Assembly: GCA_016946835.1 (NCBI GenBank)
Contig: JACVTC010000380.1
Span: 1 to 35,006, forward strand
Length of the DNA stretch: 35,006 nucleotides
From: Neocallimastix lanati (nom. inval.)
Lineage: Eukaryota > Neocallimastigomycota > Neocallimastigomycetes > Neocallimastigales > Neocallimastigaceae
Reading direction: 5' to 3'
Shown here: piece after piece, positions 3,291 through 33,026 of the stretch
Layout of the letters: every line of letters starts with the position of its first letter
Numbering within the stretch: the stretch's first letter is position 1
Program-made: the position numbers and the translations under genes
The notes under the pieces: generated by a model
Database searches by the model: none
The model's input: only the letters and a program-made list of their open reading frames with translations
What the model was told of the DNA's origin: nothing

Positions 3291-3842
3291 TGATACGTTA
3301 TTTTTATAAGTATCAATGTTTTTGTGGTTAGCAAGATTGTATTAAATAAAAATATATTCTAATATAAAAATATATAATTACAATACACGTTAATATTAAA
3401 ACAAAATATAAAAAAAATTATAGTTTTGTCGTTTTATTTATTTATTTAAATTATTTATGTCGTAATACAAATTTTATAATAAAATGTTATTAAAGATCTT
3501 ATTAATTATTTATTTCTAACTAACTTATTACTATTAAAATTTTTGATAAATAAATATATTCCCCAAATATATTTATTTTAACCAATTTTATCTCTATTTT
3601 TTTTTTTTTTAAATAAAAAAACCTCCTTTTTTTTTTAAAGAATTATAATAATTTTTCTTTTATATTTCTAATTTCTAATTTACTATAAATTAAATCCTAT
3701 TGGCTATTAACTAATTAAATAAATTTAATAATTTTTATATTACTATTTATTATTATAATATACATATATAATTTAACTAATTATTTATTATATTTAATTT
3801 TATTTCTTGATAATATTCTCTTTTTATTTAAATACTGCATCA
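3291..3842 (-). repeat. 5' LTR of element A
   Basis: The inner edge is set by the primer site: on the plus strand the LTR starts TGATACGTTA, the same TGATACG terminus as element E. The outer edge is inferred at GCATCA (3842), next to which element D's LTR begins after four A bases. It is AT-rich with homopolymers and has no ORF. The partner LTR is outside the window, so length (about 552 bp) and ends are not confirmed by comparison. Confidence 0.65.
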
Positions 3843-3846
3843 AAAA

Positions 3847-4686
3847 TGTTATGGTTCGGGTTTTATTAGAATTTTATTTAATTATTTATTTTTAATATTT
3901 TTCTGTCTACATTTTAATTATTGAAAAACTTCACTTATTTATACTTTTTGAAAAAAAATAAATATGTAAAGCCTTTCTACATTTTATTATCATATTTAAA
4001 AAAAAAATATTTACTATTACTAATTACTTAAAATTTTATATTAATTTAAATTAACTAATTCATAAGTATTTTTATTTTAATAAATTTTGTTTATATAATT
4101 TTATATTATTTTTCATATACTAAAACTAAATTATTTAATATATACGAAAAGTAACAAGCAAAATTTAAAAAGATTTTACAGAAAAATAAAGTTATTTTAA
4201 TCAAGAATGTTAATATAATATTCTTATATTTTATATAAAATAAATTTAAAAACTATAATATATTTAATATTTATTATTAATCAATTAAGATTTGATTTTA
4301 TTTGTGGGGAATAAAAATATAAAATAATCAATTTAAAAATAAAATAAAATACTAAAAAGAATACAAGTTTAATATTGATACAATATAATAATAATATAAT
4401 AATATATTTGAAAATAAAAATAAAATATTAATATTGATAATAAACACTTTAATAAAATAATAAAATTTAAGGTTAAATTATAGATATTGATATTAATAAT
4501 AAAAATATAAAATTATTGATAATATTTTAGAAACTTTTAATAAAAATATAAAAAAAATAAATATATTTAGAAAATATTTTAGTATAGAAAATATAGTAAA
4601 GTAATATTAAGTAAAGAATAATATAATGGATTCTAAAGTAAGTTGAAATTCTAATTAATAATCCATTATATGTTCGTTCTTTACCA
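3847..4686 (-). repeat. 3' LTR of element D
   Basis: This 840-bp copy runs TGTTATGGTTCGGG...TTCTTTACCA on the plus strand and is matched by 12079-12916. The dinucleotides TG/CA bound it. The inner edge abuts the polypurine tract. Small substitutions and A/T-run length changes separate it from the other copy. Confidence 0.92.
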
Positions 4687-4700
4687 AGATGCCCCCACTA
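4687..4700 (-). other. Polypurine tract of element D
   Basis: The minus strand reads TAGTGGGGGCATCT directly before the 3' LTR, in the place where plus-strand DNA synthesis is primed. Element C (TAGCGGGGGCATCG) and element E (AAGTGGGGGCGTCT) have near-identical tracts. The pol stop codon and a hairpin lie immediately upstream. Confidence 0.8.
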
Positions 4701-4709
4701 AGACTCAAG

Positions 4710-6668
4710 CTAATCTATAGCTGAGTTATACTTTACTATATTTTTCAAATGGACATTACGATTCATTTGAATCATAGTATTTGGGTCCGCAAGTGTTACA
4801 GTATTAAATTGTTTTTTTATTACTTTTAAAGGACCGACAAAATAAGGTTCTAATTTAGAACGACTAAAATTTCGAACAAGAACTAAATCACCGATTCTTA
4901 TGTTTTTGGAATTTTTCATGCTATTTTTTTCTTCCCTTCGATTGGCCCAATATTTACTTGCGTTCTTTACATTTTCAGCTGCTTCCATGGTCCACCTATA
5001 ATGTGAGATAAATTTTTCTAAAAGAATTTCATCTGAAGATTTATTCACTCCTTGTGTAGGTCTAGCAGCAATGTCGAAAGGCTGTTGATCCTCACGACCA
5101 TAAACTAATTCGAAGCTAGAATGTTTGGTTACAGAATTCTTTGTAGTTCTAAGGGCCCACAAGGCTGAAGGTAATACCTCATCCCAGTCTTTATTTTCTT
5201 CACCAAGTAATCTCAATAATTTACCAATTTCTTTATTCCTATTTTCAACCAATCCATTACTTTCTGGGTGATAGGTAGTGGTAAATTTTACGTAAACATC
5301 ATATAAGTCCAGGAATATTTTAGTCATATCCGATGCGAATTGAACGCCATTATCCGTTGTAATGACTTGAGGAACTCCATGTCTAGCGAAAACATTTATT
5401 AAAAACTTAATAATGTCCTTAGATGTAATATTTTCAGTAGGTTCAGCCTCCACCCACTTTGTGAAATAATCCACCGCAACAATGATATATTGGTTTTTAT
5501 TACCAGTTTTTATTAAGGGACCAATAATATCAAGTCCAAGATGAGTAAAAGGGCCTTCAACTTCTGTTGGAATGTTTTCGGTTGGTTCTGGATATGGCTG
5601 AGGGCGATTTAACTGACATTTTTCGCATTTTGAAATTATCCGTTTTATATCGTTGACCATATCATTCCAGTAGTAACTTTTTCTAAGTCTTTGATATGTT
5701 TTATAATAACCTTCATGGCCAACATGATGTGCTTCGATAATTAATTTTAGTTTTTCATTTGTTTCGGTAACAAGTTTTCTATAATTATTTCCATCTATAA
5801 AATAATCTATACCATCAATCTTTGTAAATTTTTCTTCAATAAATTCTTTAATTACTTTAGAAAGTGAATCATTTTCATCATCTTTATTCGTTTTTATAGC
5901 TAATACCTTTTGTTCTTTATCGTTCTTCATTCTAGATAAAGCGTCGGCTACTACATTCTTTTTACCTTGCTCATAGCGAATATCCACCTTTAGCATACTT
6001 GCAGTCAAACACCATCTTGTTTGTCGTGCATTATTCGGTTCCTTATTATTAAATAAACCTAGTAGAGGTTTGTGATCTGTAAAAACTATGGTTCTAAAGG
6101 GGCTTCCCATAATATAAGGTTTTAATTTAGTAATACAATAATATAAAGCCGTTCCTTCCAAATCGGTTATTCCATAATTCTTTTCTGCTTTGGTTAAGCT
6201 ACGGCTAATGAAATGAATCGGGTGTTCTATTTCCGATTCGTCTTTCTGCAATAAAACTCCACCAATACCTTCATATGATGCATCTGTTCGAATAATGAAT
6301 TCTTTGGAAAAATCAGGATATTTTAAAATAGGAGCATTAATTAATTTTTCTTTTAATTTGGTAAAACTTTGTTTTTGTTCATTATTCCATTTATATTTTA
6401 CGCCTTTTCTTAATAGCTTACAAAGAGGAGCTGAGGTTTGAGCATATTCATTTATAAAGTTCCTATAATATCCTACAGCACCTAAGAATGATCTTAACTC
6501 ATGTATATTCGTGGGTTCTTTCCAGGCTTTAATTGCTTCAATTTTACTATTTTGAGGACTAAGACCCTTAGTAGAAATCTTGTGACCAAGAACTTCAACT
6601 TCCGTTTGCATAAAGTGACATTTTTCAATATTAATTTTTAATTTATGTTCCTTGAAGATTGCTAATAC
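4710..6668 (-). pseudogene. pol: Element D Pol, C-terminal part: RT end, RNase H, integrase (out of frame)
   Basis: This continues the RT thumb (KLNIEKCHF...VEVLGH), then RNase H (EFIIRTDASYEGIGG), the integrase zinc-binding HHCC region (HHVGHEGYY...CEKCQ), the DDE core (GLDIIGPL; TTDNGVQF; ESNGLVENRNKE) and a GPY/F-type tail (YFVGPLKVI). The first ATG in this frame is at 6611, but homology to element C reaches back to about 6668, so it is not an independent gene. It is separated from the N-terminal half by a one-base insertion near 6668-6669, where D has a doubled base compared with C. All catalytic residues I looked for are intact, so the break looks recent. Confidence 0.88.
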
Positions 6669-8822
6669 CTTGTTTTATGTGTTGGATATGTTCTTCGACA
6701 GTTTTTGAATATATAAGTATATCATCAATAAAGTTGAAAACACATTTTCCAATTAAAGGAAATAAAATTCTATTCATTTCCCGTTGGAAGGTAGCCGGAG
6801 CTCCAGTTAATCCGAAAGGCATAACTTTGAATTGGTAGTTGCCAAATTTGGTTGTAAAACTGGTTATTTCAACACTTTCTTCGTCCATTAGGATTTGATG
6901 GTAACCTGAGTATAGATCCATAGTAGTAAAGATTTTGGCACCATCTAGACTGTCAAATATCTCGTCAATATATGGAAGGGCATAAGAGTCTTTTTCGGTT
7001 AGATCATTCACCTTGCGGTAGTCCACACACAATCTCCATTTTCCATTAGCCTTTGGGACCACAACAACAGGTGAAGACCATTCTGAATAAGATGGTACAA
7101 CTAGCTTTTTCTTAATAAGTTTAATTAGTTCTTCTTTAATAATATCCGATTTAAATTTGGTTACCCTGTAACATCTTTGTTTAACAGGTTTTGCGTTCGC
7201 TTTCAAGTTAATCTTATGAGGTGCTAAGTCTGACGGGGTTAATTCTTCAGAAGATGTCGCTATAATGTCCAAGTTTTCTTCAAGTAATTTTACTATTACA
7301 TCTTTATAATCTTTACAAAGACTTGCTAAAAATTTTTCATCATGGATATACTCTTGCGGAGATAGACCTTCAAGTTTCTTTAATTCATTAGTTGTGTCTT
7401 CATCTTCAAGTATTTTCCTTACTATACATACTAATTTTTCTTCTTCTTGGAAATTATTATTAATAGGAGCTATAACGTCGATTAGTCCTTGAGAATTAAA
7501 TTGACATAAACTATATCTTATAGGATGGATAAAAAGATTGTGTTCTACTTGAGTTTGAAAATTAATCAACAAATCATAAAATGGGTCATCATCATCAATT
7601 ATACGAAAATCTACTATCATTTTATAATCATTAATCTTAACAGGTATTCGTACAATGATTCCTTCTGAATACTCATCATTCTTAGTCGCTAAACGTATCC
7701 TTCCACGACTAATACCTACTTCTTCATAATTTCCAGGTAATTTCTCATAAAATTTTTTTGTGATAACATTGAGATTGCTACAAGAATCAATTAGTGCTTT
7801 ACCAGGAATTTCATCTACTGTTACATCAACCATGGCAATATCTTCTTCTGAGGTTTCCTTACTTTTGCTAATATAAGAGTGATCAATATTATTTACCAAG
7901 GTAGCAGCAGCAATAGTATTGTTTAATGCACCTATTATTTTCTTTTCAGGTTTTTCTAATTTTAATCCTTGACTTACTTGACTTCTGACTTTTGGAGAAA
8001 CATTGAGGAGCTGACCGAAACTAATATTACACTTGGTTTCATTCAAATCTTGTAAAACATTATATTCTTCCTGATCCTTACACATCTTGATGTTCCTAAG
8101 CGTTCTACTAATTGTTGCTTTTTCTTTAGGCTCTTGAAAATCTATGAGCTTCTGTAATGTAATATTCTCATGACCTTCGTCATTAAGCTTTTCAGGAACT
8201 TCAATAACTTCCATTTCATTGATTTGTTTTGTTTTAATAATTTTATCGTTTTCATTATCGATTAATTTATTTAATCGTTGATGCATTTTATCACTAGTAG
8301 TACTGATGCTATTTCTTTGTTTTGAAGAATCCCGACTTTGCTTTTCTCTTATAGTAATATTATCCTCCCTTTCCTTCCTTTTTCCCTTGTTATTTCCAAA
8401 GTTAGCTCTTTCTTTATTCCGAATTTGTTTTTCTTTGGCTTTCTCAATATTTATATTAGGCTGCGCCATTATCGAAGGATGTAGTTGATTTTTATTTTTA
8501 ACAATTATTCTATTTTCTATTTCCTTCTCTTTTATCTTTCTTATTGCAGGAGTTGTTATAGGGGTAGGATTATCTTTGAGACTTTTACGTTGTCTCTTTT
8601 CATTATTTTCACTAGTTTCATCGTTAGTCGTCAACTTCCTTTTTGTCGCACTAACTATAAATTCTACATCATTCTCATTATCGGATTCTTTGTGAGTTTC
8701 ATTAGTATAGGAAGCATCTTCTTTTTCTTCCTTATTATAATCATTTGTACTACTAGGAATGGATTTGTATTGTAATGAAGCTATTTTATTTTTATAGGGA
8801 GTGCTTCCTCTCCCTTTTAGTG
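6643..8822 (-). pseudogene. pol: Element D Pol, N-terminal part: pre-protease, protease, RT (ends early by frameshift)
   Basis: The frame is open from the frameshift site at 8823 through 8634 to the premature stop at 6643. It carries the basic pre-protease segment with SLKDNPTPITTPA, then FGQLLNVSPKVRSQVSQGL, then the protease loop KALIDSCSNLN (Cys replaces Gly), then RT fingers and palm including KWRLCVDYRKVND, MDLYSGYHQI, MPFGLTGAPATFQ and the catalytic FIDDILIYS. After HIQHIKQ the frame is lost and ends within seven codons. It would give a protease plus truncated RT without RNase H or integrase. It is closely related to element C Pol throughout. Confidence 0.88.
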
Positions 8823-8829
8823 GTTTAAA
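8797..8829 (-). promoter_or_regulatory. Element D -1 frameshift signal
   Basis: The slippery heptamer T TTA AAC (8829-8823) in the gag frame is followed by an 8-base spacer, then GGGAG, an 8-base loop and CTCCC (8814-8797). The gag TAA lies inside the spacer. The pol frame is exactly -1. Heptamer, spacing and hairpin are the same as in element C. Confidence 0.85.
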
Positions 8830-9710
8830 GATTTTCCACTATATAACCGTTTCTTATTTTCTTGAATAATTGCATTTAACTTAGGACAATTATACTGCAA
8901 ATGTCCTGGATCGCTACAATAAAAACAGGCTTTAATGGTAAGATTTTTCATTTTTTTTGTTAAGTCCTCCAATTCGTAATCTTTATTTCTTTTTGGGCTT
9001 CTAACTTCATAATTCTCTCTTACTACCTTTCTGTTGTTTTGATAATTATTCCTGATATTTATTCTTGGGTTGACAATTTCAGTTGAGTACTCTTTTGAGG
9101 GTCTCAAATTCATTACTCTATCAACTTTTTCGGCAATGTCAAACGCCCGATTTAAAGAAATGTCATCCTTAAGGGAGACCTTTTTCCAAGCTTCTTCATT
9201 GTTCCTAAGAGCATCAATATAATCGAGAACACTGACTCGCTTCTTTCTTTTCTTATCTAATTTCAAATATATGGATCGGAAACGAGTATTAAAGTCTTTT
9301 ACTCGCTCATTTCTTTTAATTCTTAAAGCACGGAGCTCACGAAGTAACATATTCTGGTCTTCTTTAAGACCATAAAAAGTTTCTATTGCTTCTACAATTT
9401 CCTTTAAGGAAGGATATTCATCTTTTTTCTTTTCTTCTGAATCAGATTCTTCTTCTTCTTCGTCCTCACTTTCTGATTCAGAATCGGTACTGTAACTTTC
9501 AATTAAATCCTGGATAACTTCGCGAGGCTCTCCAGTAGACGTGAGTAAGCAGGCGGTAAAAATCTTTTTGGGATCAGTAACTTCCTCAAGTTTTATCCAT
9601 AATCGGATTTCTGATTCCCAAGATTTGATATCGAGATTTTCCTTTGAAATTTTCTCGATATCTTTTAATTCCTTTTTTAATTCTTTAAAATTGATTTTAT
9701 TTTCAGCCAT
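8817..9710 (-). CDS. gag: Element D Gag with CCHC zinc knuckle (about 297 aa)
   Basis: Structural protein of the Ty3-like particle. I take the start as the ATG at 9710 (MAENKINFKELKKELKD) because element C Gag begins equivalently (MASVTND); the frame is open 13 codons further, to 9749. The conserved gag domain opens LDIKSWESEIRLWIKLEEVTDPKKIFTACLL, in short matches to element C. A Ser/Glu/Asp-rich acidic linker follows near residues 80-100. The knuckle CFYCSDPGHLQYNC (CX2CX4HX4C) is near residue 265. The frame is intact. The stop follows the slippery site, so most ribosomes should make Gag and a fraction Gag-Pol. Confidence 0.92.
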   Translation of the reverse strand: MAENKINFKELKKELKDIEKISKENLDIKSWESEIRLWIKLEEVTDPKKIFTACLLTSTGEPREVIQDLIESYSTDSESESEDEEEEESDSEEKKKDEYPSLKEIVEAIETFYGLKEDQNMLLRELRALRIKRNERVKDFNTRFRSIYLKLDKKRKKRVSVLDYIDALRNNEEAWKKVSLKDDISLNRAFDIAEKVDRVMNLRPSKEYSTEIVNPRINIRNNYQNNRKVVRENYEVRSPKRNKDYELEDLTKKMKNLTIKACFYCSDPGHLQYNCPKLNAIIQENKKRLYSGKSLNH

Positions 9711-9835
9711 TTGAAAATTTAAAAATGGTATTAATGCTATGATATCCAATTTAAAAATATGTTTACTTTAAAAATATATTTAATAACAAAAAAAAAAAAA
9801 AAAAATTTATCTTTGTTTAATAATAATATAATTAT

Positions 9836-10005
9836 GGACTCAGAAAACCCTCTGACAATCCAATTCTTTATTCCAATAATAATTCAGACTCAGAATCTCT
9901 CTCTGAAAATCTGATAAATTAATTCAGACTCGAAAACACCCTTCGAAAATCTGAAACTAAAAAAAAAATAAATTCAGACTCAAAAACGCAATTTGAAAAT
10001 CTGAA
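9836..10005 (-). repeat. Four tandem covarying hairpins upstream of gag in element D
   Basis: Four units each fold as an outer stem (mostly CAGA/TCTG, extended to TTCAGA/TCTGAA in two) enclosing an inner 5-bp stem. The inner stems are TCAGA/TCTGA twice, TCGAA/TTCGA and TCAAA/TTTGA, so both strands change together. Units are at 9836-9861, 9885-9913, 9923-9955 and 9973-10005, with less-conserved spacers. They end about 130 bases upstream of the gag start. Confidence 0.75.
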
Positions 10006-10314
10006 GCTTTTTATTATGAATTTTAATGTTTATTATATTCTCTTAAGCATTAATACACAAAATATGTATATCTTAATCTTTTTTTTTTTTTTTTAAACTT
10101 ATTTGTAGTAATAACTTCTTTATTTAATTTTATTTAATATATTTATTTCCTTTATTAAAATAATTAATATAACATAAAGCAAATTGTATAAATACTTAAA
10201 TAATAATAATAATGTATATTTATTTTTATTTTTATTTCTTTTTTGTATATATTTATTATTCTATTAATTCTTTGTTATAACATTTAATGAAATATTAAAT
10301 AAAAAGTTAAAATA

Positions 10315-10580
10315 CAAGCCAAACTATATAGTGTTGAACCATCAAATATATAGCTTGTTAACCCTTCTTACAATAAGTCCCCTTAGCTCTTTATTGATAA
10401 GTTGATAATGTCGATTGTTAATTATTAAGAAACTTAATAAAAAGAAGGTAGCAATATTAAATTCTTTTTAATTTGGCTAACTTATTGTTAGTAATAAAGA
10501 AGATAATAACGTATCCTTCCCAGTATCAACAAGATCAAAACAATAAAGTATTATGTGTGGGTGTTCAACTATCCCGCGTA
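10315..10580 (-). other. Leader domain of element D shared with element F
   Basis: In sense orientation this starts with GGG-ATAGTTGAACA-CCC, passes CATAATACTTT and CTTGTTGATA, then ACAATCGAC, ATCAATAAAGAGCTAA and a final stem with loop ACTATATA. Element F has the same blocks in the same order over nearly the same length (29960-30230). There is no ORF. The conservation across lineages, with stems that change in a paired fashion, suggests a functional RNA fold. Confidence 0.65.
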
Positions 10581-10985
10581 GAGAGTTGTAAGACAGCTTA
10601 TTTATATTTTTCTTTTTAATTAAAATTTAATTAATTATATAACGAATAATAGAAAATTTAACACACACAAAAAAAAATATTTCAATTATAAAAATTTCAA
10701 TAAAAAAATTTAATTATATAAAATTATAAAAATAATACACTTATTTGATAAATAATAATAATAATCTAATTTTATATATTCTATATATATATATATTGTA
10801 CATGTATATATTAAAAAAAAATAAAATAAACTGATAAACATAAAAAAATTACAATTTATTATTTAGAATTATAAAAAAAAAAATTTATTTATAAAATTTA
10901 TTCTTATTAAAAAAATTAAAAATTTGTACTACAAAAAAAAAAATTTTTTTTTTTTGCTTATTATTTTAATATTTATCATTAATTA

Positions 10986-11031
<46 letters not shown>

Positions 11032-11073
11032 TATATAAATCTATATCTATGATAATACTATTGGTTAAAAAAA

Positions 11074-11122
<49 letters not shown>

Positions 11123-11707
11123 TTTGTTCTACACTAAAGAAAAATTTAATTTATTATTTATAAAAAAAAATTTATTAATGAAATATTTATTATTTTAATA
11201 AAAGGAAAAAAATATATATATTTTTATTTTATTGCAAAAAAAAAAAAAAATAATAATAATAATAATAATAGGCGAACAAATTTATAAAAGCCTAAAATAA
11301 AAATAAAAAAAACTATATATTTTAACGTCACTTCGCAAGAATGACCAGGGTTTTATCAGGGATCGAACCTGACCCACCTCTTATTTTCTGCGCGAGTGAA
11401 CAAACTATCACCTGTTGAAGTGTGTAGTTGCCTTCAGCGTGAAGGTTTTATAGTTCTAGGGCGTATTTGCCTAATTGTCAAGGATTTGTTCCTTGAGATA
11501 CTCGCGTTTACAATCTACAAAACCTTGCAAAATTGTAAATAAGAGTTTATGAAATTAATATCCTGCAAGCTAACACTGTCTTACTCGAATATTAACTTCG
11601 TAAATTTGTTAACTTTTTATTATTTTTTTTTTTATTATTATTTTTTATCTATAATCTATAATTAAATAAAGTTACTACAAAAACTAAAGTTTTCCAAAGT
11701 TTTCCAA

Positions 11708-11771
<64 letters not shown>

Positions 11772-12053
11772 ATAACTTTTATTATTATTAATATTAATAT
11801 TAAATTATTAATTATTATTATTTAACAAAACTTATGGATAATCTGATAGTATACCCTGTCTGACGTGCAGCTTGCCTCTTCACGGCGTCATGCCACGCGG
11901 GTACCACGGCTACTGTATTCAATATAAAATACAGCAGTCCAGAGCCTACTAGCCCAATTACTATGTAGGTTAAACTTAGCCCGGAAATCTATATCCAAGG
12001 CTTTGTTAAATAATTTAATTAATAAATAATATTAAATTTTATTTTTCTAATAT

Positions 12054-12071
12054 TCCCCGATATCTCCACCA
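12054..12071 (-). other. Primer binding site of element D
   Basis: The minus strand reads TGGTGGAGATATCGGGGA, seven bases inside the 5' LTR. It starts with TGG, complementary to a tRNA CCA end, and is identical in element C. I do not recognise the tRNA from memory; the complement ends ATCTCCACCA. Confidence 0.75.
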
Positions 12072-12078
12072 TAAATTA

Positions 12079-13533: not shown

Positions 13534-13540
13534 TTATTAT
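13529..13540 (+). promoter_or_regulatory. Predicted mRNA 5' end / self-primer of element B
   Basis: AAGAGTTATTAT lies 35 bases downstream of the start of the TATA box, where a transcript should begin. It is perfectly complementary over 12 bases to the sequence right after the LTR (13811-13822). In Tf1 of fission yeast the first 11 bases of the mRNA serve as primer in this way. Confidence 0.7.
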
Positions 13541-14000: not shown

Positions 14001-14031
<31 letters not shown>

Positions 14032-14032
14032 T

Positions 14033-24100: not shown

Positions 24101-25372
24101 TAACAATGAAAGCTCATTAATTTTCACAGGTATCCTAACGACTATTCCTTCAGAGTATTCATCGTCTCTAGTGGCAAGCATTATTCTACCACAACTATGA
24201 CCAACAACGGTATATTGGTATGGTAGAGAATTATAATATTTTTGTGACATAATATTTAAATTACTACACGTATCAATAAGTAATTTTCCAGATACACCAT
24301 CAACAGAGGCATCTACCATTGCAATATCCTCCTCTGTTATTTCTGTACTTTTACTTTTATAGTTATGATCAACATTATTAACTAATGTTGTAGTAGCAAC
24401 TACATTATTAATAGCGCCAACAACATTAGTGGTGGCTTTTACTAGTTTTAAACCTTGGGAAACTTGACTTCTTATTTTAGGCGCAGCATTCCAAAGCTGT
24501 CCAAAGGTAATATTACACTTGGTATTGCTTAAATCATCCCATACATCATATTCCTTATAATTAGAAAGCATTTTAATAATTCGATTTACCCGAGGTATTT
24601 TCATACTATTATTATTATCATTATTATTATTATTATTAATACCATCTGTATTAATTAATTTATTTAATATATTTTTATTATTCGTTACATGATTATTATC
24701 GATAATAGTTTCATTATTATTAATATTAATAGTATTATTATTATTAATATCATTTACGACTGGGGTTTTTCTAATAGTTCCGTTGTTACTATTATTAGGA
24801 TTACTAGTATTATTATTATTATTTTTGTCTTTTTTTCTTTCTCTAGTTTGGTTAATTTCCCTTGGAGCTTCTACATTATCAACTTTTGAAGTTATTTCCT
24901 CTTTATTAGTAATTAAGTTTACATTAGACTGACTGGATGATGCAGTTTCGAATTCTTTAGAATTAGTACTAGATTTCAAAAATCTTTCTTTATCACGTAT
25001 TGCTTTTTCAATTTTCTTTTCTTTATTGATATTTGGTTGCATAATTATTGATGTTTGCAACTGTTTCTTATGAGGTATCACCTCTTCAGTTTCCAATTCT
25101 CTTTCTTTTCTTTTTCTTAATGCAGGAGTGTTTATAGGTCGTGGATTATCACGTAGGCTTTTATGAATTTTCCTTCCTTTTCCATTATCTAACTCAACAT
25201 CACTTTCATCAAGTTTTCTTTTTGCCGCACCGACAAAATATTCTCCTACCTGATCATGACTTTTGATAGTATAATCCACTCTGTAGTCTTTACTTTCTGC
25301 ATCAGAAGAATTGGAAGTATATTTTAATGAAGCTATTTTTTTGATGGGAGTGCTTCCTCTCCCTTCTACTGG
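21170..25372 (-). CDS. pol: Element C Pol: protease, RT, RNase H, integrase (intact, made by -1 frameshift)
   Basis: The frame is open from the slippery site at 25372; residues below count from 25279. Residues 1-300 are a basic, Asn-rich pre-protease segment with SLRDNPRPINTPA. The protease loop is GKLLIDTCSNLN (D336-T-C338), with Cys in place of the usual Gly. RT has KWRMCVDYRKVND, MPFGLTNAPATFQ and FIDDILIYS (D693, D694). RNase H has IRTDASYDGIGG. The integrase has HNIGHDG...CEKCQ, then D1097, D1156 and E1192 (35 residues between the last two). The GPY/F-like end is YFNGPLKVI. It lacks its own start codon context and is fused to Gag by frameshifting. No break is seen, so the element could be active if the D-T-C protease works. 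Confidence 0.95.
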   Translation of the reverse strand, partial: PVEGRGSTPIKKIASLKYTSNSSDAESKDYRVDYTIKSHDQVGEYFVGAAKRKLDESDVELDNGKGRKIHKSLRDNPRPINTPALRKRKERELETEEVIPHKKQLQTSIIMQPNINKEKKIEKAIRDKERFLKSSTNSKEFETASSSQSNVNLITNKEEITSKVDNVEAPREINQTRERKKDKNNNNNTSNPNNSNNGTIRKTPVVNDINNNNTININNNETIIDNNHVTNNKNILNKLINTDGINNNNNNDNNNSMKIPRVNRIIKMLSNYKEYDVWDDLSNTKCNITFGQLWNAAPKIRSQVSQGLKLVKATTNVVGAINNVVATTTLVNNVDHNYKSKSTEITEEDIAMVDASVDGVSGKLLIDTCSNLNIMSQKYYNSLPYQYTVVGHSCGRIMLATRDDEYSEGIVVRIPVKINELSLLIDFRIVEKEEPFYDMLINLKTIVDNRLFINPLNNCLCKYNMDGTISSITPINNSAIDEKYICSVNKLLEDNSKEKYAGGELKKLEGLPPMEYIHNTIFMNTLNEKYRTDIIHLLEDNIEIVATSSEELTPSLLSPHKINLKAGTKPIKQRAYRLTKLKTDILKEELTKLINKKLIEPSNSEWSSPIVLVPKPNGKWRMCVDYRKVNDSTIKDSYSIPYIDEIFDSLNGATIFTTIDLYSGYHQILMEEESIGITTFTTKFGNYQFKVMPFGLTNAPATFQREMNRILFPLIGKCVYNFIDDILIYSKTVEEHLQHIQQVLSILKENRLKLNIEKCHFMKTEVNVLGHRLTTKGLKPLDSKIEVIRDWKPPQDIHELRSFLGAVGYYRNFIDKYSQITACLCKLLRKGVKYVWTSEHQKSFEVLKEKLINAPILSFPQFDKEFIIRTDASYDGIGGVLLQKDNETGKEHPIHFISRSLTRAEKHYGITDLEGAALYYCITKLKPYIDGNPIPTIVYTDHKPLLGLFKNKEPHNARQTRWCLTASMLGVDIRYETGKKNVLADALSRMKNNKENVVLATKIINHDITNDENEALLSKVIHDFINEKFTTIDGIDYFIDGNNYRKLVTDLNERIKLILEAHNIGHDGYYKTYQRLRKSYYWNDMVNDVKRVVSKCEKCQLNRPQPYPEPTENLPTKVEGPFVHLGLDIIGPLVKTRSNNQYIIVAVDYFTKWVEAEPTENITSKDVIKFLINVFSRHGVPQVITTDNGAQFTSDMTKIFLDLYDVYIKFVTTYHPESNGLTENRNKEIGKLLRLLGTKNKDWDEVLPSALWALRTVKNSTTNHSSFELVYGREDQQPFDIAARPTKGINKSSDEILLEKFISHYRWTIEASENVKNANKYWAVRREEKQSMNQAKEIKEGDLVLVRNFSRTKLEPYFNGPLKVIKKKFNTVTLADPNSGILLNRNVHLKNIVKYNSATI

Positions 25373-25378
25373 TTTAAA
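25346..25378 (-). promoter_or_regulatory. Element C -1 frameshift signal
   Basis: T TTA AAC (25378-25372) in the gag frame, then the 8-base spacer holding the gag TAG, then GGGAG, an 8-base loop and CTCCC (25363-25346). The pol frame is -1 and stays open from here. Heptamer, spacing and hairpin meet the standard requirements for programmed -1 frameshifting. Confidence 0.88.
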
Positions 25379-26325
25379 GGTCCTTTGGAAAAAATCTGTT
25401 TCTTATTTTCTTCTATAATGGCTTGTAGTTTGGGACAATGTTGTTGATAATGTCCAGGTTCCTTACAGAAGAAACAGGTTTTGACGGTAGAGTTTCTTGG
25501 TCCACGTGTAAGGTTCTCCCTTTCACTTTCATCAGAAACTTTCCTATTGTCCCTGTTTTCATAAGTATTTCTTGGTGGTGAACTACGACTCTTATTATAA
25601 TTATTATTATTATTGTTGGAAACATTTCTATTAGGACTTGGTACACGATGTAACCTCACAGCAAGTCTATCCACTTTTTCTGCAATTTCATAAGCCTTTG
25701 AAAGTGGTATATCATCAATTAAAGTTACTCTTTTCCAGGCCTCAATATTATTCTCAAGTGCATCAGCATAGTCCAAGATACTGATTTGTTTTTTGTGAGT
25801 TTTATCTAATTTTAAATATAATGTCCGATATCTTTTATTAAAATCCCTTACTTTTTCATTTCTACCAATTTTAAGAGCACGCAATTCCCTTAATAAGGTA
25901 TTCTGATCTTCCTTTGCCCCATAGAATACTTCAAGAGCGTTGACGATCTCGACAAAAGAAGGATAACGGTTAGTTCTAACACTATCATTACTAGAACTAC
26001 TTGAACTAGTAGAGCTACTGGTGCTAGATCCTGACATCTCACCAGTATCAGTGGAACCATTCAATTCTACATCTTCTTCTGCTGTAGTAGCAGGTAGTTC
26101 TAATTCTTGGATAATTTGTCTTGGTTCACCAGTAGACGTTAATAGGCAAGCAACAAAAATAGTTTTTGGATCAGTGATATTTTGTAATTGGATCCATAAC
26201 TCAATTTCAGAAGCCCAAGATTTTATATCCAAATGGTCCTTGTTTAATTTATCAACATATTTTAGTTCCTTTTTAAGATCTTTAAATGAAGGAACATTAG
26301 TAGTATCATTAGTAACTGAAGCCAT
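25366..26325 (-). CDS. gag: Element C Gag with CCHC zinc knuckle (about 319 aa)
   Basis: Particle structural protein. I prefer the ATG at 26325 (MASVTNDTTN) to the upstream in-frame ATG at 26370, because D has a matching start and the 15 extra residues are not conserved. The gag domain (LDIKSWASEIELWIQLQNIT, then TIFVACLLTSTGEPR) is followed by a Ser/Thr-rich linker and a second conserved block (ALEVFYGAKEDQNTLLRELR). The knuckle CFFCKEPGHYQQHC lies near residue 285. The stop is two codons after the slippery heptamer. Confidence 0.93.
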   Translation of the reverse strand: MASVTNDTTNVPSFKDLKKELKYVDKLNKDHLDIKSWASEIELWIQLQNITDPKTIFVACLLTSTGEPRQIIQELELPATTAEEDVELNGSTDTGEMSGSSTSSSTSSSSSSNDSVRTNRYPSFVEIVNALEVFYGAKEDQNTLLRELRALKIGRNEKVRDFNKRYRTLYLKLDKTHKKQISILDYADALENNIEAWKRVTLIDDIPLSKAYEIAEKVDRLAVRLHRVPSPNRNVSNNNNNNYNKSRSSPPRNTYENRDNRKVSDESERENLTRGPRNSTVKTCFFCKEPGHYQQHCPKLQAIIEENKKQIFSKGPLNQ

Positions 26326-26383
26326 ATTTCTTGAGTAGAAATTATACAGTAATATAGGTAAAATATTCAAAATAAAAATAATA

Positions 26384-26386
<3 letters not shown>

Positions 26387-26456
<70 letters not shown>

Positions 26457-27925
26457 TTGTGTGTGTGAGTATGTTATAGATATATATAATATAGTATTAG
26501 AATTTATAAGTTTACAAACACTTCAGAGATTAGAAAAAAAAAATAGGTAAGTTTACAAACACTTCAGAGATAAAAAAAAAAAATAAGTAAAATTTTTTTT
26601 TTTTTTTTTTTTTGTTTTTTTTTTGTTTTTTTTTTTGTTTTTTTTTTTGTTTTGTTTTATTTTGATATCCAAGATTAAAATATTTTATAATTATTGTTTA
26701 TTAAATTATATCTTTATAGTTATTTATATGAGGTTCGAAATACACTTCGACCACCTACAAGAAATATATTTTTAGGTTCGAATAACACTCGACCACCTAA
26801 GGAAATTTTATATTATTGGTTCGAATACCTTTCGATCACCAATAGAAGATATAATTATATTAAGGTTATAAGCTCGAATGACACTTCGACCACTTATAAT
26901 GATAATTATTTGGTTCAAGATACACCTCGACAACCAAATCAAACAGGTAGTAAAAAAAATATAGTAGTCCTTCTTCTTTGGCTCAATTTCACTTAACCAC
27001 AGAGTAAGAACAGTAAACAAAAATTTTTTTTTTTTTTTTTTTTTTTGGAATTCAGTACACTAGAATTTCTTATATGTAGCACGGAATAAATTAATTGCTA
27101 AATTAAAAAAAATTAATATGGAAAATTTATAAATATTTCTTATATATATATTATTAGCTTTATATTATTTTCGGATCCGCAGATTCTTTACAGGGCCGTT
27201 CGACCTCCACTATTGAACCGTCAGAATAGTGAATATAACAGAGTAGTGTGTGCCTGTACGAACACGGGACCTTACCACTTTTTCTATTCTGTTATCACTT
27301 GTATCACTAAACCTTATTCAATAATGCTCTACTACCTCCCTATGTGTAAAGCAATCCTTCTCCTATTCTCTAATATAAACGTCTAATTTTTATATCTATA
27401 TATATCAACAGTCTTGGTATCAATATATAGATACTATATATATGTATATATTTATAAATTTGAATTTATAATTTCAATTATAATATAATTTAGTCGATAA
27501 TATAAATACGAATTACTATATACACTTAATTGTAACAAAGCCTTAAGCTAAGGAGTTTTTCATCCAACAGCCGCCGATTACAATAAGTTATAAATTGTAT
27601 AAAAGTATTCTTATATTAATGAATAAATGTATAATATAATTAAATTATTATTCTTACTAATTAGTACTTGACAGGAATAAATATTTCAAAGTTTTATATC
27701 ACACTGTTTCTCTTGCACAAACAGAAATATAACAACTTTGTTGAATGAAATTATTTATCCAACTAATATAGTAAGGACGTAGGTGCTACTTTAAATTATT
27801 AATATTTATTTATGTATATATTATATTTCTATATTATTGTAAAAAAAATTTTTTTTTTTTTTTTTTTTTTATTTAATTAAATAAAATTATTGTGTATGTT
27901 TTAATATTAGTTTTTAATTTTGAAA
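26387..27925 (-). other. Long structured leader of element C
   Basis: About 1.5 kb between primer site and gag, without a credible ORF. In sense order it has an A-run near 27844-27869, a GC-richer folded patch (27170-27380) that includes CACTATT/AATAGTG, a tandem hairpin array (26731-26939), oligo-A tracts, and finally an uninterrupted 68-base A-run (T at 26387-26454 on plus) about 60 bases before the gag start. The function is not known. Confidence 0.7.
26731..26939 (-). repeat. Five tandem covarying hairpins in element C leader
   Basis: Five units share an inner core built on TCGA (typically TTCGAA...TTCGA) but differ in their outer stems, each self-complementary: AGGT/ACCT (26731-26756), TTAGGT/ACCTAA (26772-26800), TTGGT/ACCAA (26816-26842), TTATAAG/CTTATAA (26866-26899), ATTTGGTT/AACCAAAT (26908-26939). 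Paired changes on both arms keep pairing possible, on either strand. Spacers are A/T-rich and variable. Confidence 0.85.
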
Positions 27926-27943
27926 TCCCCGATATCTCCACCA
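27926..27943 (-). other. Primer binding site of element C
   Basis: The minus strand reads TGGTGGAGATATCGGGGA, identical to element D, seven bases inside the LTR. The priming tRNA is not recognised from memory. Confidence 0.75.
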
Positions 27944-27950
27944 AACTTTA

Positions 27951-29027
27951 TGTTATGGTTCGAGGAATTCAAAAAAAAAAAATTATATAATATTAAAACA
28001 CAAAAAAAAATTTTATTCTTTCACAATAATTTTTATTTATTTATTATATTTTTATTTTAATTTTTATTTTATTTTTATTATTATTTTTATTTATTTATTT
28101 TATTTTTATTTTATTTTTATTATTATTTTTATTTATTTATTTTATTTTTATTTTATTTTTATTATTATTTTTATTTATTTATTTTATTTTTATTTTATTT
28201 TTATTATTATTTTTATTTATTTATTTTATTTTTTTTTTTTATTTATTTATTTTTATTATTTCTATTTTTTTTTCTTTTTTTTTTTTTTTCTCTCTCTCCT
28301 AAAAAGGGGTTCCAAGGTAGTCAATTTATATCTTTTTGAAGATATAAAAGTAGCAAAGCCTCTGGAAGTAGTTGAAGAGATGGAAAAACAATAGATTTTT
28401 AAATCTTATTGATTATTTCCTTATTGTAATAAATAGAAATTTTATTATTTCCTAATATTCAAATTAACCAAAATAAATCTATAATATAAAAGATGCATTA
28501 TAGATAAGAATTAAACAAAAAAAAGAGAAGCAGTATTACAATAAAATTGAATACTTTAACTTAATTTTGATACTAATTTAATATGTAATCTTATATATTA
28601 ATTTGAATGACATAATAGAAAATAAAATACATTTATTAATATATGAAAAATCTTTTACAATTTTAAATACAGAAAATTTTATTTTATTTATTTCTTTCAT
28701 TTCAATTATTTCTTAATTCGAAAGACAGAAATATTGATAAAGTTATTTAAGTTGTTTATATACAGGAATTATTCCTTATTTAGAAAAATAATACTAAAAG
28801 TAATTAGTACTATGTTATTGCTAAACTCTCATAAATTTAATTTACCTTTATAAGGAATGAACATAAATTTAAATTAAATTTTATGTATAAACTTAAATTT
28901 TCAGATCAAATAATATAGTAAAATTATTAATGTAAAGAATACATAAATTTATTAATATTTTAAAATTCACCTTGACTATATTAAAAGGTTTTTAATAAGA
29001 ATCAATTTATTACTTCATTCTTTATCA
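27951..29027 (-). repeat. 5' LTR of element C
   Basis: 1077 bp, matching 20071-21146 except for one T-run. The promoter candidate on the minus strand is TATAAAT (28330-28324), next to a perfect hairpin TTATATCTT/AAGATATAA; transcripts would start near the GAGAGAGA tract around 28290. The 42-bp minisatellite is at about 28030-28228. Confidence 0.94.
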
Positions 29028-29041
29028 AAGTTAGTAAAATT

Positions 29042-29113
29042 GTTGTTGTAGTCTGGTGGTAATATACCATGACAATGAAGCCGAACTTCATAGGTTCGAC
29101 TCACACCCTTTCC
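29042..29113 (+). tRNA. tRNA-like Pol III unit in F LTR (not a functional tRNA)
   Basis: A box TAGTCTGGTGG (29049-29059) and B box GGTTCGACTC (29093-29102) sit at tRNA spacing; numbering from the A box puts the T-loop TTC at position 54. A TTTTT terminator candidate follows at 29126-29130. The T and acceptor stems do not pair, so I call it a tRNA-derived relic or promoter rather than a tRNA gene. The AAAGT target of element C is 11-15 bases upstream of position 1. Confidence 0.55.
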
Positions 29114-29367
29114 CAATCTAAATTATTTTTAGTTAATTAATTAAATTATTGTAGAAAGTTCTAGAGTTTCTTTGGTTAATATTATATAACTAAATGAAAC
29201 TAGAAAGTTCTATTTTAATAATTATTTTATCATTTTTCTATAAGATTCATTTTCTAGAAAGAAAACTTAATTTTTCGAACTTTCGTTAATCTTAACTTTT
29301 TCCGAAACTGTTTTTCTGAAAAAGTATAAATAAGGTGAATTTCTCAACAAAAAATAATTTTTTCTTC

Positions 29368-29377
29368 GTGCTTTTAT
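29368..29377 (+). promoter_or_regulatory. Predicted self-primer at mRNA start of element F
   Basis: GTGCTTTTAT, about 43 bases after the start of the TATA box, is complementary to 29533-29542 directly after the LTR. The inverted copy F' keeps the same sequence at 32133-32142 on the minus strand. Confidence 0.6.
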
Positions 29378-29532
29378 TAACTAGTTAAAAGTAATTCGAA
29401 ATATTACAATAACTAATTAATAATAAAAAATAATAATAAATTTTATATTTTAATAAAAAATATTAATAAAACAAATTTTTTAAGAAAACGAATTACTTAT
29501 TAGTGTAGACCTATTGGGTGTAAACCGTTACA

Positions 29533-29542
29533 ATAAAAGCAC
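29533..29542 (+). other. Self-priming primer site of element F
   Basis: ATAAAAGCAC at the first base after the LTR end TTACA. It pairs over 10 bases with 29368-29377. This is the same architecture as element B but with unrelated bases. Confidence 0.65.
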
Positions 29543-29582
29543 CCAAAGAAAAGAAGCCCAGTACCCCTGCACTAAGGACTAG

Positions 29583-29806
29583 CCAAAGGAAATCTACCAA
29601 CTCAAGAAATCAAGGAAATCAAGGAAATCAAGGAAATCTACCAACTCAAGAAATCAAGGAAATCAAGTAAATCAAGGAAATCTACCAACTCAAGAAATCA
29701 AGGAAATCAAGTAAATCAAGGAAATCTACCAACTCAAGAAATCAAGGAAATCAAGGATATCTACCAACTCAAGAAATCAAGGAAATCTACCGAATCAAGA
29801 AGATTT
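29583..29806 (+). repeat. Higher-order minisatellite in F leader
   Basis: Blocks of the 9-mer GGAAATCAA (one variant GTAAATCAA) alternate with CTACCAACTCAAGAAATCAA, giving a compound period of roughly 40-50 bases repeated about five times, with single-base variants. No ORF, spacer diversity or protein link is seen. Confidence 0.85.
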
Positions 29807-29959
29807 GTTATAAGGCGAATAAAATAAAATAAATTAAATTACAGATACTATACTAAACAACATCTCGCATTAAATAGTACTCTACTCTCCGAATAAATAT
29901 TTATTTTAATTATAATTAATTTTAAATTTCTTACGTTATATATAAAGGCTTGCCTGGCT

Positions 29960-30230
29960 CCCAAAGCGACGATAGTTGAGCATCGTTACCATAATACTTT
30001 GTCGTTCAGATTCTGTTGATAACTGAGGAAGATAATTTGTTGTACTTTTTCATGCTAACAAAGGTTAGATACAAACAAAAATACAATTACATTACTTCCT
30101 TCTACCATTAATTGGTACTAACAATCGACTTAATCTGCGTTTATCGATAAAGAGCTAAAGAGACTTACCACGCAAGGCTTTAACAAATTATATATTTCCT
30201 GGCTCAATACTATATGATTTGGTTTATAAC
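29960..30230 (+). other. Leader domain of element F shared with element D
   Basis: Blocks collinear with D (10580-10315, minus): ACGAT-AGTTGAGC-ATCGT hairpin, CATAATACTTT, CTGTTGATA, ACAATCGAC, ATCGATAAAGAGCTAA, GACTTA, TTTAACAA, TATATATTT, then a stem around ACTATATG. The first stem is ACGAT/ATCGT here and GGG/CCC in D. The last has AAT/ATT here and AAC/GTT in D. Pairing is preserved while the sequence changes. Confidence 0.65.
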
Positions 30231-30318
30231 AATTCAATAAGAAATAAAGATTAATCAAATAAAATAAATATTTAATTACTCCTATATCTTCCAAAATAAT
30301 TATATATTACTTTATCAC

Positions 30319-30362
<44 letters not shown>

Positions 30363-30778
30363 ATCACGGGATATATCAAAAAAATCAACTCTGAAAATAT
30401 CCAATCTCAAATCACTCTCAAAATCAATCTGAAATTTTATATCAACTTAATGCAATAAATTTTAAATCTCAATAATCTTTTCTAAATTATTTCCAGCTCT
30501 CTATAACTATTAAACTACTATAATAATATATATACAAATCTACTATACCTAATTTAGTATATTATATAAATTTAAAATTTCAATACCAAACCTTATTTAA
30601 TTCTAAATAATTCCAGTGGGATCAATTATTACTATTTATATATTCAAATCCTCCTTAATCAAAAGTATATTATAATTCAATTCCTCTCTATTATACTGAA
30701 AAAATCGTTCTTAAATATATCTTATTCCAATTTATTCAATAATCAACTATAAAAATAACAGTGAAACTTATATTCAAA

Positions 30779-31492
30779 ATGGAAGAAAACAATTTTGCCA
30801 ACGCAACCTATAAGGATGGTTTTGCCGGAGATAGACGATACCTTAAGGGATTCTTAGCTAAAATGAATTTAATCTTCATGATTCACCCTGATCGATTCAA
30901 TAATGATGAAACAAAAGTAATCTACGTTATTTCTAGGTTATATGGTAATGCTATGAATTGGGCAGCATCACTTATGGAGAATCAGGACCCTTGCTTGTTA
31001 AATTACGAAGCCTTCGTTGAAAGAATGAAATCTGTATATGGGAGTTATGACTCAACATTCATTGCAAATCAGAAACTCAGAACTATAAGACAAAAACGGT
31101 TAGGCGACATTAGAAGCTATATACTCGAATTCAACTCTTATGCCGACGAGTCATCTTGGAACGAAGAAGCGAAAATGGACGCATTTCTTGTTGGTTTAAA
31201 TGATCAAATCGCTACAAGAATTCTGGAAATGTTCCCTGGTCCAAGATCTCTTACTGCTATGCAAACTATAGCTTCCAGAATAGATGGCCGTCTATCAGCC
31301 CATAGGCAATTTACAAATAATCAAAATCGATCAAACAATAACCTTAATAACAACAATTCTAATAAGAAAAGATGGAATTTTATAAGAAAGGTTCGAATTC
31401 TAAACATTATGGACCCCTATCCGACGAAGAAAAAGAAAGAAGAAAAAGAGAAAACCTCTGTTTATATTGTGGATCCTCAAATCATACTCTAG
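30779..31492 (+). pseudogene. gag: Element F Gag, N-terminal part (frameshifted)
   Basis: Sushi-type gag domain from the ATG at 30779 (MEENNFANATYKDGFAG), with the conserved run GNAMNWAASLMENQD and IRQKRLGDIRSYILEFNSYADE, typical of retrotransposon gag (element B has the equivalent LKQLQLGNVAEYTIEFRRLA). After KKRWNF near 31378 the frame is lost, apparently by one missing T in a T-run, and reads nonsense to 31492. The nucleocapsid part continues in the next frame. Confidence 0.85.
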
Positions 31493-31944
31493 GCAATTGT
31501 CCACTCAAAAATAAGAAAAAATCACCCTCAAGCACTTCTCATATTACTAATCCTGAACCAAAGGCCAAAGAAAGAACAAGAATCTCAGATCAACAAAATT
31601 TGAGTCTTCCTATATTTGAATTCACTCTCAATGTTTTAAAATCATCAGTCAAAACTAAGATTCTTCTAGATTCAGGTTCTCAACTTAATCTTATGGATGT
31701 CTACTTTGCCAATGAAAATAACATTCCTTATTCATCCGAAACCATTCATCCTGAAGTAGGAGGAATTGGTGGTACTCAGAAAATTCTCGGGGAAACTTTG
31801 CCAATTTCGATCCGCTATAAAAATCACAATTGTAAAACTAAGTTTTATGTCGTCGATTTACCTTCATATTGTGCTCTTCTTGGCGCTGAATGGCTCTCTA
31901 CTCATAATCCAACAATAGATTTCTCTTCTAAAACTGTAACGGAG
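31372..31944 (+). pseudogene. Element F Gag zinc knuckle and protease (truncated)
   Basis: Continues gag in the adjacent frame: the CCHC knuckle CLYCGSSNHTLGNC, a basic/Ser-rich linker, then retropepsin with TKILLDSGSQLNLMD (canonical DSG) and ALLGAEWLSTHNPTIDF, the usual second motif and end of the protease. Coding homology stops near 31940; the last few codons read into the primer-site sequence of F'. No RT follows. Confidence 0.85.
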
Positions 31945-31954
31945 GTGCTTCTAT
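31945..31954 (-). other. Self-priming site remnant of F'
   Basis: The minus strand reads ATAGAAGCAC directly inside the F' LTR edge. It differs by one base from the perfect complement of the F' primer sequence at 32142-32133. It marks F' as the start of an element reading leftwards, of which nothing more than about 14 internal bases remains. Confidence 0.55.
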
Positions 31955-32564
31955 TGTAAAGGCGGGATAAGATATAGAAACACAGAAAGGAGAAAACTCA
32001 ATAGGTTTACACTATCTGTATAAATAATTCGTTTTATTAGAAATATTTTTTATTAATTATAAAATTTAAAATAATTATTAATATTAATCAACAAGGTAAT
32101 ATTTCGAATTACTTATACGTTAATTATTATTAATAAAAGCACGAAGAAAAATATTTTCATTCGTGAAGTTCGCACTATTTATACTTTTAACGGAAAAACA
32201 GTTTTAACATATAAAAATAATTTTAAAGAAATATTTAGAAATATGTTTAAATAATTAATAATGTAAAGTTTCTAGAATATAGATTTTAATTGATGAAAAT
32301 GAATCTTATCAAAAAAGAATAAAATAATTTATATAATAAGAATTTCTAAATTCATTTCGGTTGAATTACGAACCGAAAGAATCTTTAACTTTCTATAATT
32401 TTATACAGAAAGAATATTCAAGAAGATATTATTAATAATTAATATAATAATTAATAAAATAATTATTTATGCAAAATGGGTTGAGGTGTGAGTCGAACCC
32501 ATGAAGTATTGGTCATGGTCAATGTAACTAACCATTGAACCAAAGTTCTAATTTTACTAACTTG
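31955..32564 (-). repeat. F': inverted, diverged LTR of the F family
   Basis: On the minus strand it is collinear with the F LTR: AAGTTAGTAAAATT, tRNA-like unit, ATAAGATTCATTTTC, AAACTGTTTTTC, TATAAATA (32183-32176), TTCTTCGTGCTTTTATTA, end ...CCTTTACA. Divergence from F looks large (tens of percent), so it comes from a different insertion. Its outer end is interrupted by element E. Confidence 0.75.
32479..32549 (-). tRNA. tRNA-like Pol III unit in F' LTR (relic)
   Basis: A box TGGTTCAATGG (32542-32532) followed by GTTAGTTAC, very tRNA-like, and B box GGTTCGACTC at tRNA spacing; an ATTG/CAAT stem surrounds an anticodon-position CAT. TTTT follows within three bases. Only 3 of 5 T-stem pairs form and the acceptor does not pair. 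Element E starts 15 bases upstream of position 1. Confidence 0.55.
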
Positions 32565-33026
32565 TGATACGTGACCACTATAAAAATGGTATTTAGGTAG
32601 ATTCTTTAGGTTAAAGAAATACTTAAATATTATTGGTCAATAATTTTATAATAATATATATAATTTTAGAATAATAATTATTAAACGGAGAATTCTTTAT
32701 TTATGAGTTTATACTTATGATAAATTAATTCATATAAATAGCTATTTTATATTTTATTTTAGTATAGTTAAAAAGAGATATTATATATATTTGAGATAAT
32801 TAATTATAATATTTATATAAGAGAGTAATAATAATAATTTATGTAATAATTAATAATTAATAATAAATAAAGAGAACATTAAAAAGATATATTTATTACT
32901 TTATTTTGTATTATTGTATGTGTTATTTCTAATTAATATTAGAATATATTATTTTGTCATAATTCCTTATTGTCATTTGCCCATAAATAAATATTAATTT
33001 AGATACATAAATAAAATATCGTATCA
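32565..33026 (+). repeat. 5' LTR of element E
   Basis: 462 bp, TGATACGTGACCACTATAAAA...ATCGTATCA. The first 21 bases recur at 34986-35006, the start of the 3' LTR. The target duplication candidate is ACTTG (32560-32564); its partner lies outside the window. Confidence 0.92.

Follow-up and report, generated by a model that had tools for sequence, protein, structure and literature searches.

Several families of long terminal repeat (LTR) retrotransposons in Neocallimastix lanati (nom. inval.; Neocallimastigomycota) appear to be directed to the starts of RNA polymerase III (Pol III) genes, including tRNA-like units in the LTRs of another retrotransposon, here called F; they insert about 15 bp upstream, stack on one another and, in families A, C, D and E, keep one fixed polarity (probability of this reading, about 0.86). 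Here, we report the stack of elements A to E in contig JACVTC010000380.1 (assembly GCA_016946835.1; contig C313 in our numbering), which is analyzed at its whole length of 35,006 nucleotides and called the window, and the distribution of the same families over the genome (199,045,447 bases in 762 contigs; very AT-rich).

Results

Left to right, the window reads A (minus strand), AAAA, D (minus), AAAG, B (plus), C (minus), TAGTAAAATT and the F unit, with every junction read directly. The 5′ LTR of A ends at 3842 and is followed by AAAA, D (3847 to 12916), AAAG and B (12921 to 20064), which is flanked by the duplication AAAAG on both sides and points its 3′ end towards the F unit. C (20071 to 29027; TG..CA ends) faces that unit with its 5′ end, 14 bp from position 1 (29042, placed seven bases ahead of the A box). 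The F unit, a tRNA-like Pol III promoter unit, spans 29042 to 29113 on the plus strand (A box TAGTCTGGTGG, 29049 to 29059; B box GGTTCGACTC, 29093 to 29102; first TTTT past the B box at 29126). A second unit, F′, lies on the minus strand at 32478 to 32549 (A box TGGTTCAATGG, B box GGTTCGACTC), and the 5′ end of E, which starts at 32565, faces it 15 bp from its position 1 (32549). The stacked ends just upstream of a tRNA-like unit, the like offset of E (15 bp versus 14 bp for C) and the duplication around B had all been described in an earlier note on this DNA and are borne out here; its duplication AAAGT around C is present on both sides one base shorter, as AAGT.

Genome-wide, the best 40 LTR copies of each family were scored (candidates: A, 531; B, 1985; C, 205; D, 1896; E, 843), and for some of these the locus or a short flank was retrieved. 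The 124 outer flanks gathered came to 102 after five internal ones (loci L163, L152, L160, L067 and L079) were dropped and duplicates removed; this total, and that of 77 given below, count six B 3′ flanks, the enlarged B set holding 12 unique ones. The detector required an A box (at most 2 mismatches) and a B box (at most 1), both directed outward from the element, and position 1 had to lie 5 to 30 bp off. Such an A-box/B-box unit stood at 25 of the 102 unique flanks, 21 found by the detector and 4 added by eye (L007 and L015, where another A box had been picked; L065 and L080, with 2 B-box mismatches). The same detector gave 0/102 on reverse complements, 8/10,200 on shuffles and 3/5,750 on window tiles. 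Distances from flank to unit were 14 to 20 bp, mostly 14 to 16 (16 in L059). Sorted by hand, the 25 comprised 12 F-type units, 7 tRNA genes, 1 Rfam tRNA (L159) and 5 other A/B-box units (L029, L065, L080, L147 and L173); L159 (38 bits) was the only one of nine other loci scanned to give an Rfam tRNA match. Targets were read by eye as tRNA-Ser, Trp, Val, Ala, Arg, Glu and an intron-bearing tRNA-Ile; ARAGORN, run on other copies, confirmed the Ala, Arg and Asn types only and missed 1 of 20 Ala loci (L198).

Two flanks are recorded separately. In L029, the 5′ end of C faces an A/B-box unit (GGTTCGACCCC) followed by TTTTTT, which had no Rfam match at E values up to 0.1. In L066, the 5′ end of E is turned towards roughly 100 bp of GC-rich sequence that ends in a T-run within this AT-rich genome; it is possibly a novel Pol III RNA and had no Rfam match over the same range of E values.

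Targeting was also measured from the gene side, with tRNA genes located independently of LTRs in two ways: Rfam RF00005 had 9278 candidates, 63 of them scored, and a tRNA-Ala pattern picked out 37 genes. Twenty RF00005 loci, all tRNA-Arg(TCT) and 10 of them with tRNA-Asn just before, and 20 of the 37 Ala genes were read. An LTR end was accepted when a stretch at most 25 bp upstream of the gene had its end in common with a different target class; duplicates were collapsed in the flank test, not in this test nor in the count of target site duplications. Upstream LTR ends were present in 33 of 40 loci (Ala, 15/20; Arg, 10/10; Asn-Arg, 8/10), 29 of the 33 lying 10 to 19 bp before the gene, and a stricter version with a smaller library gave 28/40. 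Downstream of 12 Ala genes there was one, a weak match (1/12; upstream versus downstream, Fisher p = 5e-6). For 5S genes, one of eight loci read (of nine matches) had an E-like LTR end (CGTATCA) 8 bp before the gene (L232, contig C293). The hallmark of Ty3-type targeting, insertion tightly confined to the first 20 bp or so upstream of Pol III genes, is present. The distance peak near A/B boxes or tRNA genes that the earlier note had proposed as a check exists, with its mode at about 15 bp, since the same and other families lie equally far from true tRNA genes; the genome-wide flank and gene-side tests exclude chance at the window site.

In the 20 tRNA-Arg(TCT) loci (L101 to L120), the 10 copies of tRNA-Asn(GTT) just upstream are separated from tRNA-Arg by about 13 to 15 bases where ARAGORN placed both; the LTR end sits before tRNA-Asn, which suggests a joint transcription unit. 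Contig C555 holds a single-stranded run of tRNA matches (all on one strand, 170 to 399 kb) that accounts for 34 of the 63 scored; most have the score of the tRNA-Arg copies read elsewhere.

Polarity, tallied by hand from flank tests and match strands, was uniform in four families: wherever A, C, D or E met a unit, its 5′ end faced it (21/21). Pooled, 21 of 41 five-prime flanks and 0 of 36 three-prime flanks had a unit (p = 7e-8), with family counts of 5/8 versus 0/9 for A, 7/15 versus 0/13 for C, 5/8 versus 0/7 for D and 4/10 versus 0/7 for E. Eleven of the 21 insertions were at F units, which are not host genes.

Among the 56 flanks in A, C, D and E that lacked a Pol III unit, 32 had TG (the LTR start) at an offset of exactly 4 (other offsets, 0 to 9). 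Of the 17 A and D insertions whose flanks on both sides were true outer flanks, 15 had matching 4-bp duplications (20 pairs in all, three with an internal flank). Together these indicate stacking, in which each element occupies bases that were duplicated by the one before it. Duplications varied among copies (TCAT, AAAC, GTTG, TGTT, TCAG and TCGA), and B had no preferred TG offset (21 flanks; 12 in the enlarged set). The A-AAAA-D junction (window 3837 to 3850) also occurs in contigs C263, C713 and C268 (L161, L164 and L165); the far sides of A differ between C263 and C268, which points to duplicated or recombined blocks or haplotypes.

F is a chromovirus, and the unit lies at the 5′ end of U3 (the first part of its LTR), upstream of the TATA box. 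A 502-base stretch from just before the F unit was searched (40 scored of 1006 candidates) and recurred several times as direct pairs. Empty copies start TGTAACGAATC(C/G)TA(A/G)AGTTAGTAAAATTG and end CGTTACA, which defines the repeat as an LTR with ends TGTAACG..CGTTACA. Pairs lie 4.4 to 7.6 kb apart with internal coding sequence between them, and a short interspersed element was rejected for this reason. In the copy in contig C116, 1,439 codons run from stop to stop in one frame and encode capsid, reverse transcriptase, RNase H, integrase and chromodomain, the last, diagnostic of chromoviruses, at 1389 to 1437 of the frame (PF00385; 63.3 bits versus a cut-off of 25.1). Four F LTR types, 62 to 72% alike, were distinguished (U1, which is F′; U2, which is F; U3 in L013; U4 in L021), and across them the B box ties for the best-conserved 10-nucleotide window (0.95 versus a mean of 0.63). 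TATAAATA is kept in all four types (at 294 to 379), and the first TTTT past the B box comes at 84 to 95, about 200 to 290 bp short of the TATA box. Transcripts made by Pol III would thus end within the U3 region and could not serve as the element genome. The earlier note had called the promoter a relic; its retention in four LTR types and the open frame in C116 speak against this. ARAGORN did not call either window unit a tRNA, nor did Rfam at E values up to 1, and a true tRNA gene was rejected for both.

At the unit spot, 25 of 40 F LTRs were interrupted, 19 as read from fetched flanks and six from neighboring matches (element C in the window and in contigs C132, C469, C59 and C60; element E in C750). 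Eighteen of the 19 interrupting ends were common to other target classes. The 15 uninterrupted LTRs include 14 read from fetched flanks, ten of these being 3′ LTRs with F internal sequence on their left; by exact patterns, in which a base change was also scored as not intact, the LTR start was intact in 20 of 44 F cores. Where D had entered a U4 LTR, the LTR start TGTAACGAATCTTA was left on the far side (L157/L158). The proposal of the earlier note that a Pol III-type promoter inside an LTR serves as a repeated landing pad is strongly supported. The outer flanks of F itself had no unit (0/8), and some lay in coding-like sequence of other elements.

By their domains, B and C (order reverse transcriptase, RNase H, integrase; similarity to Ty3) and D (likewise, as two pieces) are assigned to the Ty3 group; the pol regions of A and E lie outside the window or are decayed. 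For both B and C, the Ty3 polyprotein is the best relative with a solved structure. In the list of 120 relatives of the C polymerase, the named entries of highest identity are P0054 (60%) and P0040 (57%), whose label jgi/Orpsp1_1 we take to denote Orpinomyces, a member of the Neocallimastigomycota; metagenomic proteins reach 79%, and higher-scoring named plant or algal entries are about 35 to 44% identical. Relatives of that polymerase were also sought in viral contigs, with 0 confirmed among 88 pattern matches.

Element A (1 to 3842, minus strand, cut by the window end) has its 5′ LTR at 3291 to 3842, a primer-binding site (PBS) at about 3270 to 3285 and an open frame in gag position at 1809 to 3230 (no Pfam match over cut-off), with a further open stretch down to 862. 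Stops occur in all three minus frames of 1 to 864, so the decay ascribed to A by the earlier note holds for that part, not for the long gag-position frame. D (minus strand) has LTRs at 3847 to 4686 and 12079 to 12916, a gag-position frame at 8820 to 9767 and pol split between 6646 to 8838 and 4713 to 6674. It is frameshifted as the note had stated; its LTRs, described there as diverged, differ by only 8 substitutions in 834 plus 6 gaps (a BLAST figure of 95% takes in flanking bases and gaps). B (plus strand) has LTRs at 12921 to 13810 and 19175 to 20064, identical over 890 bp, and a single gag-pol frame at 15082 to 19158. C (minus strand) has LTRs at 20071 to 21146 and 27951 to 29027 (0 substitutions, 1 gap), a gag-position frame at 25369 to 26496 and pol at 21173 to 25402.

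The PBS of C (27927 to 27943) and that of D (12055 to 12071), CCCCGATATCTCCACCA on the plus strand, start 7 bases after the LTR and match the 3′ end of the genome's own tRNA-Ala(TGC) plus CCA; Tf1-like self-priming, which the earlier note had assumed, was rejected for both. E (32565 to 35006, plus strand, cut by the window end) has its 5′ LTR at 32565 to 33026 (TGATACG..CGTATCA), PBS TGGTGGAGAATCCGGGCG at 33031 to 33048 and a gag-position open frame at 33399 to 34685 (no Pfam match over cut-off). The remainder of the F 5′ LTR (29028 to 29532, plus strand) ends CCGTTACA, its initial bases TGTAACGAATC.. having been cut off by the stack. The F internal region (29533 to 31934, plus strand; compared with the C116 copy) carries a gag-protease frame broken off by the F′ LTR (sister type U1; 31935 to 32564, minus strand), which is inserted in the F reading frame at 31935 and is itself interrupted by E beside its own unit. 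A stretch upstream of gag is 70% similar between D (10313 to 10573) and F (29971 to 30228), in opposite orientation.

Discussion

In the mechanism that we propose, integration would be directed to the start region of Pol III genes by the integrases of A to E, which would bind the assembled transcription factor IIIB (TFIIIB) complex, as that of Ty3 does. The targets are genuine tRNA genes and, no less frequently among the copies sampled, the A-box/B-box units at the 5′ end of F-type LTRs. Elements integrate about 15 bp before the unit and form stacks; each newcomer would settle beside the unit, on the 4 to 5 bp duplicated by its predecessor, which gives a predicted order from the outside in. 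Position, kinship with Ty3 and the one E-like end before a 5S gene fit tethering to TFIIIB. A complex meeting TFIIIB alone could yield one orientation, an idea suggested by Ty3, which is described as requiring Tfc1 of TFIIIC for both orientations (PMC5911963). With the 5′ ends of A, C, D and E facing the Pol III gene, element and gene would be transcribed apart.

Several observations weigh against this reading or narrow it. Seventy-seven of the 102 flanks have no direct contact with a Pol III unit and are read as probable stacked LTRs. Only 12 Ala loci were read downstream, inspection by eye showed no LTR end at two of the 20 Ala loci (L182 and L187), and the F flanks read number only 8. The evidence for fixed polarity in four families comes from 21 insertions: that of E alone is not significant (p = 0.10), B is mixed (unit at 3/19 five-prime and 1/12 three-prime flanks), and in L002, a C three-prime flank, an F′-type unit runs towards C and is cut at the B box. 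The A box is only averagely conserved by letters, no better than the rest of the F LTR, yet fits the degenerate pattern; that the F unit drives Pol III transcription is a step that we infer. As only the best 40 copies per family were scored, samples favor young copies, and all counts come from one genome. A general age stratification was not supported. The layering proposed in the earlier note holds in the window, where LTR divergence increases away from the F unit (none in B, 1 gap without substitutions in C, 8 substitutions in D). Nine A LTR pairs elsewhere, a comparison of low power, gave no gradient: copies without a unit at either end (0, 2, 0 and 0 substitutions) are as young as those beside a unit (1, 0, 0, 0 and 0).

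Of the other explanations, tethering to polymerase III itself, as in Ty1, would fit Pol III genes being the common feature of the targets. It is unlikely given that Ty1 spreads over a 1-kb window with a periodicity of about 80 bp (PMC3545840), whereas insertion here is sharp at about 15 bp, as in Ty3 and in DGLT-A of dictyostelids (PMC5006619), and B and C are of the Ty3 group. Selection could produce the same picture if elements inserted widely and survived only in the harmless space before tRNA genes, a region regarded as a safe site (PMC5006619), and what we counted were copies, not new insertions. We consider this quite improbable, because the F flanks (0/8 at Pol III units) reveal other tolerated space, because F units, although not host genes, are hit at the same spot and with the same polarity (11/11 in A, C, D and E), and because identical LTRs in 7 of 9 A pairs leave little time for sorting.

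Recognition of DNA sequence near the site rather than of a Pol III complex would draw on the conserved TTAGTAAAATT before F units or on the A-rich run, and both are common to the window site and many F sites; yet tRNA-Ala, Arg, Asn and other targets differ at the insertion point while keeping the same distance to position 1, and six different 4-mers are duplicated, which makes such recognition very improbable. Duplicate loci do exist (L144/L145, L149/L151, L116/L117 and the A-D junction in C263, C268 and C713) and remained uncollapsed in the gene-side and duplication counts, so that a few co-amplified LTR-tRNA blocks might mimic independent insertions. Several LTR families before one tRNA type, one LTR end before different target classes and different 4-bp duplications around different copies leave this explanation hardly any room.

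F, which was not found at Pol III genes, would thereby introduce Pol III start sites at other places in the genome. On balance, we lean towards the idea that the F LTR promoter, unable to make genomic RNA, acts as a mobile bait within a few bases of which other LTR families dock, four of them in one fixed orientation opposite to that of Tj1 of Schizosaccharomyces japonicus; retrotransposons would then parasitize each other's promoters, and the bait may divert insertions from host tRNA genes. One jumping gene would supply repeated landing sites for others. Pol III-bearing LTRs offer a natural experiment in which occupied and empty pads can be counted and promoter features that attract integration sought, and four families with a polarity opposite to that of Tj1 would allow a comparison of how the Pol III machinery orients the integrase complex. 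Pol III targeting has been viewed in terms of adaptation to compact genomes (PMC5006619); here, several families target Pol III genes in a 199-Mb genome, where F shows that non-Pol III space is tolerated.

Comparison with known systems

Among the literature matches listed, which cover few subscription journals, there was no report of tRNA gene targeting in Neocallimastigomycota or of an LTR-borne Pol III unit as a target of other elements, and the combination of a coding chromovirus LTR, a Pol III landing pad and reversed fixed polarity was not found.

Ty3 of Saccharomyces cerevisiae is alike in its reverse transcriptase/integrase group and its sharp insertion just upstream of tRNA genes (about 12 to 15 bp from the mature tRNA; PMC5006619), and the one E-like end before a 5S gene may add to the likeness. 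Differences from Ty3 are the 4-bp duplications of A, C and D, the fixed polarity of these three and of E, and targets that include units in the LTR of another retrotransposon; insertion in both orientations was absent from A, C, D and E (0/36 three-prime ends at a unit), B being mixed. Tj1, a Ty3/gypsy element, likewise inserts a few base pairs upstream of Pol III genes in one fixed orientation, which its authors call unique (PMC4600332). A, C, D and E differ from Tj1 as described there in their opposite direction (21/21) at about 15 bp upstream, and A, C and D in their 4-bp duplications. DGLT-A resembles the present elements in having no chromodomain and in inserting about 15 bp upstream of tRNA genes, and for dictyostelids a tRNA gene hit by a further element as well is mentioned (PMC5006619). 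The host group is another one, and the passages on DGLT-A in that source report neither polarity nor landing pads in other elements.

For F, the nearest likeness is to Helenus and TRIMp3, whose LTRs contain tRNA-like sequence with A and B boxes and which are described from rust fungi, some Agaricomycetes, animals and Selaginella (PMC10886601). Helenus is a short terminal-repeat retrotransposon in miniature (TRIM) of 311 to 1263 bp, and such TRIMs and their autonomous partners are argued to be unlikely to share a long LTR stretch (PMC10886601). F is not a short non-coding TRIM: its LTR pairs lie 4.4 to 7.6 kb apart, with a 1,439-codon frame in one copy and a TATA box downstream of the unit. Each ingredient thus has a known relative, in Ty3, Tj1 and DGLT-A and, for a tRNA-like sequence in an LTR, in Helenus; their combination appears to be new.

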